DNA from: an uncultured Oscillospiraceae bacterium
GTDB taxonomy: Bacteria; Bacillota; Clostridia; Oscillospirales; Oscillospiraceae
Assembly (NCBI GenBank): GCA_944385365.1
Contig: CALWWW010000012.1
Span: 1 to 62,317 of the forward strand
Direction of reading: 5' to 3'
DNA: 62,317 nt
Translations under genes and position numbers: made by a program
The notes under the pieces: generated by a model
Databases searched by the model: none
Told to the model about the DNA's origin: nothing
The model's input: only the letters and a program-made list of their open reading frames with translations
Shown here: one piece after another, positions 5,413-8,907 of the stretch
Layout of the letters: every line of letters starts with the position of its first letter
Numbering within the stretch: position 1 is the first letter of the stretch

Positions 5413-6801
5413 TTGTTTTCCTATCTGAACCGCGGCGGCGCGTTTTACCGCAATGTGGCCAAGCTGGCCCTGCCCATCGTGCTGCAAAACCTGTGCACCA
5501 CCCTGCTGGGTCTGGTGGATACCTTTATGGTGGGCGCGTTGGGTGAAGCTCCCCTGGCGGCAGTGCTGGTGGCCAATATCCCGGTGTTCATTATCCAGCT
5601 GGTCATCTTCGGATTGCAGAGCGGCTCGTCGGTGCTCATCAGTCAGTTCTGGGGCAAGGGCGATACGGATTCCATCAACCGGGTCATCGGTCTGGGCGCT
5701 TATGTGGCCGGGGCCATCTCCCTGCTGTTTGCGTCGGTGATGTTTTTCTTCCCGGTGCAGCTTATGAGCCTGCTGGCCGACAACGCCGAACTGGTGCCTC
5801 TGGCGGCCCAGTACGCCCGCATTGTGGGCTTCTCCTATATTTTCAACAGTCTGACGGGTATTTATGTGGGCGCGCACCGGGCCATGGAGAATCCCAAGCT
5901 GGGCACCATCGTTTTTGCCTGCTCCATGGCGGCCAACACCTTCCTCAACTGGGTGTTTATCTTCGGCAACCTGGGCGCACCGGCCATGGGGGTGCAGGGC
6001 GCGGCTTTCGCCACGCTGCTGTCCCGGATTCTGGAGTTCATCATCATGATCAGCTATGCCCTGACCAACCGGCGGTTCCGCATGAAACCGGCGCTGATGG
6101 TGCGGCCCGGCAAGGTGCTGATTCAGAAATTTATCCGTTACTCCGGCCCCGTGGTCCTCAATGAAACCCTGTGGGGCGTCGGCGCATCCATGTACAAGGT
6201 GGTCATGGGCCATATGGAAGGCTCCACGGAAATTCTGGCGGCACGGGCCCTGGCGGGCAATGTGGAGGACCTTTGCACCGTCATTGTCTTCGCCATTGCC
6301 GGTACCACAGCCATCATCATCGGTCGGGAAATCGGCGCGGGACGGCGGGACTCGGTCTATGAGATCGGCGCAACGCTGGATACCCTGGGCTTTTTCTGCG
6401 GCCTTGTCATCGGCCTGCCCATGGTGGCCTGTGCCTGGCTGGTGTTCCCGGACCTGCTGTACCCCTTCTTCCACCTGTCCCCTGCCGCCGGACGCATCAC
6501 CACCATGATGCTGACGTTCATCGGTTCCCTGCTGGCCTTGCGGTCCTTTGAAACAGTGAACATTGTCGGCGTTCTCCGGGGCGGCGGCGATGTTCGGACG
6601 GCCACAGCCATTGACCTGATTCCCATGTGGTTCGTGTCCATTCCCCTGTCGGCCCTCTTCGGTCTGGTGCTAGAATGGGGCATTTTCTGGGTCTATGTGG
6701 GCATGGTCAGTGAATACTTTATTAAATCTACGGTGGGATTGATTCGGCTGCGGTCCGGCCGCTGGATTCAGGATGTGACGCGGCTCTCTTCCGAACCGTA
6801 A
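5413..6801 (+). CDS. MATE family efflux transporter
   Basis: A 462-aa inner-membrane exporter expected to use a Na+ or H+ gradient to expel drugs or metabolites. It has about 12 hydrophobic helices in two related halves; the N-terminal AKLALPIVLQN and GLVDTFMVGALGE segments are typical of the MatE domain, and the equivalent second half begins near YSGPVVLNETLWG. Start is TTG with GAGGTGATT upstream. It is transcribed alone from a well-formed promoter, divergent from the DUF368 operon. The substrate cannot be predicted. Its stop codon is only 3 bp from the repeat element to its right. Confidence 0.93.
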   Translation: MFSYLNRGGAFYRNVAKLALPIVLQNLCTTLLGLVDTFMVGALGEAPLAAVLVANIPVFIIQLVIFGLQSGSSVLISQFWGKGDTDSINRVIGLGAYVAGAISLLFASVMFFFPVQLMSLLADNAELVPLAAQYARIVGFSYIFNSLTGIYVGAHRAMENPKLGTIVFACSMAANTFLNWVFIFGNLGAPAMGVQGAAFATLLSRILEFIIMISYALTNRRFRMKPALMVRPGKVLIQKFIRYSGPVVLNETLWGVGASMYKVVMGHMEGSTEILAARALAGNVEDLCTVIVFAIAGTTAIIIGREIGAGRRDSVYEIGATLDTLGFFCGLVIGLPMVACAWLVFPDLLYPFFHLSPAAGRITTMMLTFIGSLLALRSFETVNIVGVLRGGGDVRTATAIDLIPMWFVSIPLSALFGLVLEWGIFWVYVGMVSEYFIKSTVGLIRLRSGRWIQDVTRLSSEP

Positions 6802-6804
6802 AAT

Positions 6805-6828
6805 ATAAAAGTTTTACTCGATTTTTTT
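6805..6828 (+). repeat. Left terminal inverted repeat
   Basis: Perfect 24-bp inverted partner of 7639-7662. It starts 3 bp after the MATE stop codon and leads into a local hairpin (CGATTTTTT / AAAAAATCG). Confidence 0.8.
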
Positions 6829-6844
6829 CAAAAAATCGCGGAGT

Positions 6845-6972
6845 CCAGAGGCAGAGCCTCTGGTCGCCCGTCGCAACGGGCGAAATACCCGCTGGCCGCA
6901 GCCAGCGAAACACCCGCGCCGCGCACGGCGCGACATGCCCCTGTCGTTCAAAGCGCCATCCGCAGATGGCGC
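6845..6972. repeat. Left array of five hairpins, four with CGCA loops
   Basis: Consecutive perfect hairpins: 6845-6863 (CCAGAGGC-AGA-GCCTCTGG), 6865-6882 (CGCCCGT-CGCA-ACGGGCG), 6890-6907 (CGCTGGC-CGCA-GCCAGCG), 6915-6932 (CGCGCCG-CGCA-CGGCGCG) and 6953-6972 (GCGCCATC-CGCA-GATGGCGC). Stems differ in sequence but are all fully paired, and the loop is constant. Two of the linkers are AAATACC and AAACACC. Confidence 0.85.
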
Positions 6973-7333
6973 AACCCTGGCCAAAGGCCATGTCCCCCGT
7001 TGCCGCCCCCTGCGGGGGTGGACGGCGGGGGACATCCATTTATCCATTTCGCCCAGCGTAGGGGCCGGCATCCCTGACGGCCCCGGACGGAATGCTCCAT
7101 GGACGCGTCAAGGATGCCGCGTCCTACGAAACGGTTGCGCATTCGCCCCAATGCGCCGGGCAACGGTACCCGGTGCGGCGCGGCGGCACACACAGGTGCC
7201 ACCCTACGAACATGGACGGACTGCCCCGCATGGTTTGAGGGCCGGTACATCATCGGACACGGTACGACATAAGGCCGCCGTCCACCACCCGCTGACGGGG
7301 TGGGGACGGCGGCCTTCGGCTTTGCCGGGGGTT

Positions 7334-7460
7334 GCGCCATCTGCGGATGGCGCTTTGGACGATTGGGGATTTCGCCCGCTGCGGCGGGCGGGTGTTTCGC
7401 TGGCTGCGGCCAGCGGGAGTTTCGCCCCGTGCGCGGGGCGACCAAAGGCTCTGCCTTTGG
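7334..7460. repeat. Right array of five hairpins, mirror image of the left array
   Basis: Hairpins at 7334-7353, 7373-7390, 7398-7415, 7423-7440 and 7442-7460 correspond, in reverse order and on the other strand, to the five hairpins of the left array. Two pairs of stems are identical. Three pairs differ at six base pairs in total, and every difference is compensated on the opposite side of the stem. Confidence 0.85.
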
Positions 7461-7638
7461 AAACCGCGATTTGGGCAACGCGCCACCGGCTGGCAAGAGG
7501 TGTCGGCGAGGAATTTTGTGGCAGAGCAAGGCCCAGCTTCGCCGCCATACTGGATGTATGGCAAGAAGCTGGGCCGCAGCTATGGCGCAAAAGGCCCGGC
7601 GACACCCGCAGACACACCGGCGGTAAGTTGCCCCACAG

Positions 7639-7662
7639 AAAAAAATCGAGTAAAACTTTTAT
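7639..7662 (-). repeat. Right terminal inverted repeat
   Basis: Perfect 24-bp inverted partner of 6805-6828, ending 30 bp before the stop codon of the mtlD-like gene. Confidence 0.8.
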
Positions 7663-7692
7663 CTTTTTTACTGCTGCACTACATCATAAGGT

Positions 7693-8907
7693 TCAAACGA
7701 TATTATGCAATGCCGCGCCGCGAACCTCGTCGGCAGCCCGGCGCAGATCGGCCATCGTACAGCCCTCCAGGATTTTACCGTAGAACTGCTCCACCAATGC
7801 CGCAAAAGGATGGTCTGTCGGCAGTTGGGAAACCTCATTCAAAACCTTACGGCAGGCATCCGCCGACTGTTCCCAGCCCGCCTCCTGCACATACCGCCGC
7901 ACACCGGCGGCAGCGCCTACAGCCATATAGGCCGGGACCACATCCATTTCCACGGCCAGCTTGGCCGCACCCACCAGGCGGTCCTCCGGCGACAGCTTCC
8001 GGCCCGGATCGCCGCCCACTCTGGCGCAGGTATCGCCCAGGGCCCGATTGGTAAACCGCCGCAGCAAATCCATTTTATGGAGCATCAGCTGGTCCATGGG
8101 GACTTCATACCGCTTGGACAGGGCCAGCAAACTCTCGTCCATGGCCCCCTCCGTGAGAATGCGGATTTCCGGCTCGTCGATGGCCTGCCAGATATAGGGC
8201 AGCCCCAGCAGATCACCCAAATAGGCACAGGTGGCGTGGCCCATATTATGGAGGTACAGCTTCCGCTTGATGTAGAAGTCAAAGGGCGCAAACGGCACCA
8301 TGCCCGGCAGCTCCGGCGGCTGTCCCTTGAACGCGGCCCCGTCCACCGGCAGATAGCCGTAACGCTCCACGCAGACCCGCAGCGGGTCGCCGTCCTTCAT
8401 TTCCTCCGTCTGCACCGGCACCATGCGGCCAATGGAAGCCTCCACCAGGCCCACCGTTTCGTCGAACTTCCGGCACTCCTCCTCCGTCAGCTGTTCCTTA
8501 AGCATCCGCTCCAGAATCAGATTGGCATCCATGAGGTTTTCACAGATGATGATATTCAACGGCGCGTCGGTACGCTGCCAGCGCTTACGCAAGCCCGCCA
8601 CGATATTGCCCACGATAAACTTGAGGATTCTCGCGCCCACGGCTGTCGCCATAATGTCACAGTTGGCAATGGCTTCGGCGGCGGCCTCCTGGTCGTTGCC
8701 GTTGACCGCCGTCACCGGCGAGACCATCACATCCTCGTGGCCCTGGCTGGACACATAACGGACCGGATACGCGCCCCGCTGCTGCAAGCCCTCCACCACC
8801 GGCTCAGCCACATCGATAAAGGTGACGGCGCAGCCTGCCTGGCTGAACAGCGCACCGATAAACCCGCGGCCAATGTTGCCGCCGCCATACATAACCGCCT
8901 GTTTCAT
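7693..8907 (-). CDS. mtlD: Mannitol-1-phosphate 5-dehydrogenase-like polyol-phosphate dehydrogenase
   Basis: A 404-aa member of the polyol-specific long-chain dehydrogenase family, predicted to interconvert a sugar-alcohol phosphate and a ketose phosphate with NAD(H); mannitol-1-phosphate/fructose-6-phosphate is the classic pair. The N-terminal dinucleotide fold has YGGGNIGRGF at residues 7-16. The catalytic signature K-x4-N-x2-H is present as Lys216, Asn221 and His224. It is translationally coupled to the upstream PfkB kinase gene (4-bp ATGA overlap, with the GGAGGG site inside the kinase gene), so the kinase and the dehydrogenase probably act on the same phosphosugar pool. No PTS mannitol gene is nearby, so mannitol itself may not be the substrate. 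Confidence 0.85.
   Translation of the reverse strand: MKQAVMYGGGNIGRGFIGALFSQAGCAVTFIDVAEPVVEGLQQRGAYPVRYVSSQGHEDVMVSPVTAVNGNDQEAAAEAIANCDIMATAVGARILKFIVGNIVAGLRKRWQRTDAPLNIIICENLMDANLILERMLKEQLTEEECRKFDETVGLVEASIGRMVPVQTEEMKDGDPLRVCVERYGYLPVDGAAFKGQPPELPGMVPFAPFDFYIKRKLYLHNMGHATCAYLGDLLGLPYIWQAIDEPEIRILTEGAMDESLLALSKRYEVPMDQLMLHKMDLLRRFTNRALGDTCARVGGDPGRKLSPEDRLVGAAKLAVEMDVVPAYMAVGAAAGVRRYVQEAGWEQSADACRKVLNEVSQLPTDHPFAALVEQFYGKILEGCTMADLRRAADEVRGAALHNIV

Follow-up and report, generated by a model that had tools for sequence, protein, structure and literature searches.

A composite palindromic repeat of probable REP/BIME kind, with arrays of CGCA-loop hairpin cassettes, in an uncultured Oscillospiraceae bacterium

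We analyzed a 62,317-nucleotide stretch of DNA from an uncultured Oscillospiraceae bacterium (GenBank assembly GCA_944385365.1, contig CALWWW010000012.1), hereafter called the window. The interval at positions 6805 to 7662 of the window consists of two units of one dispersed family that face each other, with GTAG-tagged REP modules between them. The interval is probably a composite noncoding palindromic repeat of the REP/BIME kind, made of two facing units and the GTAG REP modules nested between them. Each unit begins with a conserved head and continues into an array of short hairpin cassettes with a constant loop, and the heads recur throughout the genome and in part of the order. The kind to which the repeat would belong is already known from REP, BIME, and REPIN sequences.

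Results

The interval occupies most of the gap between two converging genes. On the left lies a MATE family transporter gene (5413 to 6801, plus strand; TIGR00797, 189.4 bits, cut-off 147.4), and on the right lies a mannitol-1-phosphate 5-dehydrogenase-like gene that converges on the element (7693 to 8907, minus strand; best NCBIfam model, 258 bits, below the cut-off of 356). The left head begins 4 nt past the MATE stop codon; on the other side, 31 nt separate the right head from the stop codon of the converging gene. Mechanical open reading frames span the interval; the codon-model caller places no gene there, and no Rfam family reached its gathering score in the window, in agreement with the initial annotation of a gene-free gap without a recognized RNA family. 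Folded as RNA, positions 6802 to 7692 have a predicted energy of −603.7 kcal/mol, compared with −387.0 ± 7.8 kcal/mol for 20 shuffled sequences (z = −27.8).

The perfect 24-bp inverted ends noted in the initial annotation are present at 6806 to 6829 and 7638 to 7661, and the 25-bp ends (6805 to 6829 and 7638 to 7662) also match at 100%. They are, however, the heads of two separate units, which contradicts the earlier view of the interval as a single structured unit. The arms are inverted and imperfect as described but longer than the 160 bp given for them, since one arm pair (6833 to 6940 with 7365 to 7472) has 108 nt at 83% complementarity and a second (6938 to 7031 with 7275 to 7368) has 94 nt at 77%. 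The two further large hairpins are real, at 7271 to 7316 and 7531 to 7574, and there is a third at 6990 to 7035.

The left unit (6806 to 7035, plus strand) starts with the head motif TAAAAGTTTTACTCGATTTTTTTC (6806 to 6829), which runs into a first A/T hairpin, CGATTTTTTTCAAAAAATCG (6819 to 6838), followed by a hairpin of the GAGGC-AGA-GCCTC type, H1 (6845 to 6863). Three CGCA-loop cassettes come next (6864 to 6932), with the stems CCCGT (6864 to 6883), CTGGC (6890 to 6907), and CGCCG (6915 to 6932) in order from the head. The unit ends with a closing CGCA hairpin, GCGCCATC-CGCA-GATGGCGC (6953 to 6972), and the large terminal hairpin at 6990 to 7035. The right unit is read on the minus strand from 7661 to 7271. 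Its head motif (7638 to 7661) is separated from the array by module B (7473 to 7637), a piece of about 165 nt that contains the hairpin at 7531 to 7574, and its H1 hairpin is of the AAAGGC-AGA-GCCTTT type (7442 to 7460). The right array (7373 to 7441) has the stems CCCCG (7422 to 7441), CTGGC (7398 to 7415), and CCCGC (7373 to 7390) in order from its head and is followed by a closing CGCA hairpin (7334 to 7353) and the large terminal hairpin at 7271 to 7316. Between the units, two GTAG-tagged REP-like hairpins with the tag directly before the hairpin form an inverse, REPIN-like pair (7058 to 7084, plus strand; 7101 to 7127, minus strand), and a third GTAG-tagged hairpin (7182 to 7207, minus strand) has a CTGTGT loop and one non-Watson-Crick pair.

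As a separate observation, the left head read outward (6831 to 6802, minus strand) resembles a sigma-70 promoter (TTGAAA, 18 nt, TATATT; 10/12) and faces the MATE gene in antisense direction. In all, 6500 to 8000 contains two promoter-like sites, where 0.5 was expected.

The units of the window belong to a large family. We refer to the genome studied (2.58 Mb) as G000 and to three congeners as G001, G004, and G006. The head motif occurs at 158 places in G000 (78 forward and 80 reverse, with at most two mismatches; a reversed control gave none), so that the genome contains many dispersed palindromic units, as is typical of REP and BIME sequences. The refuting case named in the initial annotation, an element unique to this place, therefore does not hold: searched in the genome and in relatives, the 24-bp end proved to be a dispersed repeat. 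A search with the whole element returned 200 matching pieces in G000, many of them partial and some counted more than once because the two arms match each other. Many units elsewhere in G000 are single-headed and stand alone. The G000 stretches fetched for further analysis come from the first 100 of the 158 head places and thus cover only part of the copies.

Outside this genome, the distribution is patchy. With at most one mismatch, the head was found in three of seven genomes of the genus (149, 98, and 94 places) and at no place in the other four. In the family, 4 of 300 genomes have the head, one of them at a single place. Across the order, a 28-nt core (at most two mismatches) was present in 8 of 396 genomes including G000, representing three families and 7 of 168 genera; among the places listed, it is exact in two families and one or two mismatches off in the third. 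An exact 21-mer was found in at least 91 stretches of named genomes, and among the matches listed, its carriers are Candidatus Avoscillospira, Faecivivens, Merdivicinus, Gallacutalibacter, Anaerofilum (including sp. An201), Anaerotruncus (including sp. G3), and relatives. Carriage by phages was considered and rejected, as viral contigs contained no exact 21-mer.

To describe unit anatomy, we kept 285 units: 123 from G000, 110 from named contigs (which include contigs of G001 and G006), 30 from G006, and 22 from G001. From the head, the order is the A/T hairpin, a hairpin of the GGGGC-AGA-GCCCC type, and the CGCA-loop cassettes; the far end often has the closing CGCA hairpin and a large hairpin, as in the window. 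A cassette is 25 nt long, with a constant CGCA loop and a variable paired stem, and 167 of 267 spacings are 25 nt; the linkers between cassettes are mostly AAAYWCC. At least one cassette is present in 116 of the 123 G000 units. When six of seven stem pairs were required, seven stem types accounted for 369 of 383 hairpins in G000, arranged in 76 different orders over the 116 units; under a looser filter (at least three of the four loop-near pairs), the G000 units contained 381 CGCA hairpins. The looser filter also yielded the 585 hairpins used below, counted after removal of units cut off within 150 nt and of repeats of the same 150 nt. A second unit form has the ~165-nt module between head and array, and its 17-nt signature was found in 26 of the 123 G000 units.

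In genomes other than G000, G001, and G006, head and loop are unchanged while many of the stems are different. We compared 36 distinct first hairpins, 14 from G000 and 22 from these other genomes. Base pairing was kept in 95.1% of cells, although the set had passed the filter on three of four loop-near pairs, which favors columns 6 to 9 but not columns 2 to 5. In this set, 72 cells had changed on both sides, compared with 19.7 ± 3.5 in shuffled data, and only 2 cells had changed on one side; the stem upkeep score was 0.654 versus 0.167. G-U pairs make up just 3 of the 288 stem cells, a weak hint against selection on RNA. A second test, comparing G-U with A-C mismatches at pairs 1 to 7 of the 585 hairpins (30 G-U, 22 A-C, 52 other), was set aside as powerless, because 50 terminator-like hairpins, taken as a control, gave 12 and 9, respectively. 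The A/T hairpin changes in pairs too (CAAT..ATTG), in one distant genome and one congener. The core with this paired change lies on contigs C1 and C2 of the distant genome (G611, family f24), and the same change is found in G001 contigs.

Ten heads (L058, L084, L094, L095, L096, L110, L111, L116, L122, and L124) share a repeated upstream wing with an ATGC-GAA-GCAT mini-hairpin, and GTAG modules precede several of them. A protein gene ending at the head of these ten units was considered and rejected, as the read-through consists of wings and GTAG modules with no gene in common.

Gene calls for the placement of the units came from a codon-model caller trained on the window genes and are approximate. 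Gaps with the motif in G000 were convergent in 37 cases, tandem in 37, and divergent in 1, while gaps of at least 20 nt without the motif, in the window and the fetched G006 stretches, were convergent in 26 cases, tandem in 161, and divergent in 41 (convergent excess, P = 4 × 10−11; divergent deficit, P = 7 × 10−5), a background that comes mostly from another genome (G006) and partly from stretches chosen for holding motifs. On the whole contig C1 of G006, 7 of the 20 convergent gaps carried the motif, as did 13 of the 72 tandem but none of the 20 divergent gaps, and the convergent excess was weaker (7/20 versus 13/92 for all other gaps; P = 0.048). The units are thus extragenic and avoid divergent promoters, in line with REP and BIME sequences. 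They often begin within 35 nt of a stop codon, which overlaps the head at 12 sites, and at 12 of 22 sites lying 58 to 110 nt past a stop codon, the unit comes after an exact GC hairpin followed by T. Among the 37 convergent motif gaps, 20 were two-headed and 17 one-headed. In tandem gaps, the unit was co-oriented with the upstream gene in 28 cases and opposed to it in 17 (P = 0.135). A strict orientation behind genes had at first seemed clear from the 105 co-directional cases among 123 motif places with a called neighbor (18 were not co-directional, and 3 more places had no neighbor). This claim was dropped, because convergent gaps count every orientation as behind a gene and the tandem gaps are split 28 to 17.

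Hairpins with the GTAG tag cluster around the motif. Near motifs, the fetched G000 stretches contain 1.36 of them per kb, versus 0.118 per kb in the remainder; in the 91 stretches listed for named genomes, the densities are 0.226 and 0.044 per kb. This enrichment is partly a matter of placement, because near-motif DNA is mostly intergenic and the remainder mostly coding. Near motifs in the G000 stretches, we counted 201 GTAG hairpins, compared with 2 to 41 for five other four-letter tags. A GTAG 26-mer (at most two mismatches) occurs 153 times in G000, 31 times in G001, and 52 times in G006 but in none of four other congeners. RAYT matches follow the same pattern, being found in G000, G001, and G006, with only short pieces in G001. 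Two RAYT-like genes were located in G000: C11:41098-41583, with a Y1_Tnp match of 25.8 bits (cut-off 23) and 61 bits for NF047646 (below its cut-off of 80), and C32:18391-18876, with 72.9 bits for NF047646 (also below 80). The protein from C11 had no match among solved structures at an E value of 0.01. The GTAG part of the element fits the known REPIN/RAYT kind.

The head-and-array unit lacks the marks of such a system: its hairpins do not each carry a GTAG- or CGTC-type tag, and it does not generally go together with RAYT genes. Within the genus, head motif and RAYT matches do co-occur. In two other families, however, 4 of the 7 genomes with the motif have RAYT-like genes, as do 6 of the 17 without it, none of the matches being over the cut-off; the distribution does not follow the motif, and no enzyme was linked to the unit. 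A RAYT transposase as mover of the whole unit was therefore rejected, so that the head-and-array unit calls for a different explanation.

Each of the two RAYT-like frames in G000 contains an inverse GTAG hairpin pair (L229:1396-1589 on C11 and L228:1671-1860 on C32), which begins 108 nt into the frame in both, even though the two proteins share just 36% identity. It would be unusual for a REPIN to lie within the gene of its own presumed transposase. An IS200-like transposase frame with one in-frame stop codon was also seen in G000 (contig C54, L227:1501-1866, minus strand; Y1_Tnp, 113.4 bits).

We compared head loci between G000 and G006, which are about 91 to 98% identical over long matches at these loci. 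Counting both ends of one element as two, we compared 124 head sites of G000. For 33 of them, a flank could be matched in the G006 stretches fetched, with a head there in 17 cases and none in 16. True absences are fewer than 16, because two flanks match at only 72 to 76% identity, another site falls at a stretch edge (with a palindrome at its second flank), and a further one is rearranged. Among the 17 head-bearing sites, 11 are one-headed in both genomes, and 4 are two-headed in G000 and a minimal palindrome in G006. The remaining two are one-headed in G000 and either two-headed or minimal in G006. Composite units that are polymorphic between relatives are again what is seen in REP and BIME families.

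Individual loci differ in several ways. At the site of the window element, a plain GC hairpin is all that G006 and G001 have, with nothing window-like between the two stop codons, and the whole stop-to-stop gap differs between G000 and these relatives. At one further locus (A), facing units with different interiors are present in G000 and G001 and a palindrome in G006; at another (B), facing units in G000 correspond to a 43-bp palindrome in G006 and G001 and to an ordinary GC hairpin in G004. One G006 site retains half a head, which speaks for loss; its counterpart in G000 is a pair of contig ends that both carry units. One G001 palindrome is identical in sequence to a right-hand copy. Sites without the element in relatives, which the initial annotation proposed to look for, therefore exist; a clean insertion does not emerge from them, as comparison by eye of about ten loci with G006 showed neither a target-site duplication nor an exact empty site, though flanks were often replaced. 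From these alignments, we read the locus differences among the congeners as both gain and loss. In one comparison (L232:3266-3308 and 8310 in G006 versus L080 in G000), the two flanks of a G000 element are separated from each other and inverted in G006, and one of them bears a minimal palindrome. This is a rearrangement with its break at the repeat.

Discussion

Known repeats share some properties of the family and lack others. PMC2817692 describes the BIMEs of enterobacteria as composite palindromic units that are extragenic and present in many copies, and according to PMC3733652, REPs lie mostly between unidirectional and convergent open reading frames. The family in the window is likewise a many-copy, extragenic composite of palindromic units, but in place of alternating REPs it has a head motif and an array of 25-nt cassettes with constant CGCA loops and few stems. 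GTAG-tagged REPs and REPINs are associated with RAYT transposases in PMC2817692, PMC3733652, and PMC3116915; the GTAG hairpin modules of the window element, two of them an inverse pair, and the RAYT-like genes of G000 are similar, while the cassette hairpins have no GTAG tag and the motif does not track RAYT genes in two other families. In searches of open-access papers, we found no account of the head motif, the 25-nt CGCA cassette array, or their spread in the Oscillospirales, and two 17-mers of the motif had no match there. CRISPR arrays resemble the cassette array in that constant and variable parts alternate with a short, regular period, but here the variable part is a short stem of few types that pairs within its cassette, and the arrays are dispersed.

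A model for the family can be outlined as follows. The units may spread as nonautonomous repeats and survive where they break neither a gene nor a promoter. Recombination at the many near-identical heads and linkers would swap and reorder cassettes. The 20-bp A/T hairpins of facing units are also near-direct repeats of each other, and deletion between them could reduce the pair of units to the 43-bp palindrome; the exact right-hand copy sequence in one G001 palindrome suggests this step. The GTAG part was probably moved by a RAYT transposase of G000. Either template switching inside hairpins or selection may keep the stems perfect. Their perfection, with halfway states almost absent, points equally to template switching and to selection that acts on the hairpins of both strands. 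For the template-switching idea, we draw on general background and on PMC7202029. Transcribed units would give the message a 3′ end with stable hairpins.

This last step raises the question of whether the units are functional 3′-end RNA elements, with hairpins that end transcription or protect the message against exonucleases. The units might act in 3′ RNA stability or termination, given the frequent start of units within 35 nt of a stop codon, the 12 heads that overlap one, and the strong covariation of the stems. Two minimal palindromes have predicted folding energies of −26.2 and −25.0 kcal/mol (z = −9.3 and −9.6), and one of them sits where G004 has an ordinary GC hairpin. As the main explanation of the family, we nevertheless hold such a role to be doubtful. 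Orientation in tandem gaps is not significantly biased toward the upstream gene, more than half of the 22 more distant units already follow a GC hairpin with T, and a scan of positions 6500 to 8000 found no terminator. An RNA family would be expected to show more G-U pairs than 3 in 288 cells, and the unit is missing behind the orthologous gene at several loci. The scarcity of G-U pairs would suit a DNA-architecture site instead, i.e., palindromes that bind a conserved nucleoid or topology protein, by analogy with BIMEs, which bind gyrase or IHF. Placement between converging genes, where supercoils collect, would also suit it. Against the view of the units as drifting repeats, the head is exact over genera (as a 21-mer) and the 28-nt core is exact in two families, which could mean a function and would agree with such a binding site. 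However, four of the seven congeners lack the head (at most one mismatch), so that the head is dispensable in the genus, and we regard an architectural role of this kind as very unlikely.

A classical MITE, in which the 24-bp ends would be the transposase sites of one element and one-headed copies its decayed remnants, is highly improbable. MITEs and the window element have in common inverted ends, the lack of a gene, and dispersal, and the perfect ends, high copy number, and presence or absence between close species speak for such an origin. The likeness proposed in the initial annotation thus extends to dispersal but not to anatomy, because the ends belong to the heads of two separate units. 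One-headed units are common, including nearly half of those in convergent gaps and the 11 sites that are one-headed in both G000 and G006; the two arms of the window element carry different sets of cassettes; the interior is variable and modular; and no target-site duplication was seen at the loci compared. A single MITE was rejected on account of the one-headed units and the differing arms. A more speculative proposal is that the 25-nt cassettes form a combinatorial alphabet that is reordered by a dedicated hairpin-recognizing enzyme, with the head serving as a dock between loci and, horizontally, between families. It likens the writing of cassettes to attC sites, folded DNA used by integrases, and we consider it unlikely. 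A composite palindromic repeat of the REP/BIME kind remains our preferred reading, and it is favored by the number, dispersal, extragenic placement, and polymorphism of the units.

The repeat family described here occurs in gut Clostridia, and its density would be sufficient to shape intergenic DNA. One of the comparisons places the repeat at the break of a rearrangement. Since the stems change in complementary pairs with hardly any halfway state, the family offers a natural test of selection versus template switching. Finally, two palindromic systems are layered in one element, one that goes with RAYT genes and another that is not tied to them.
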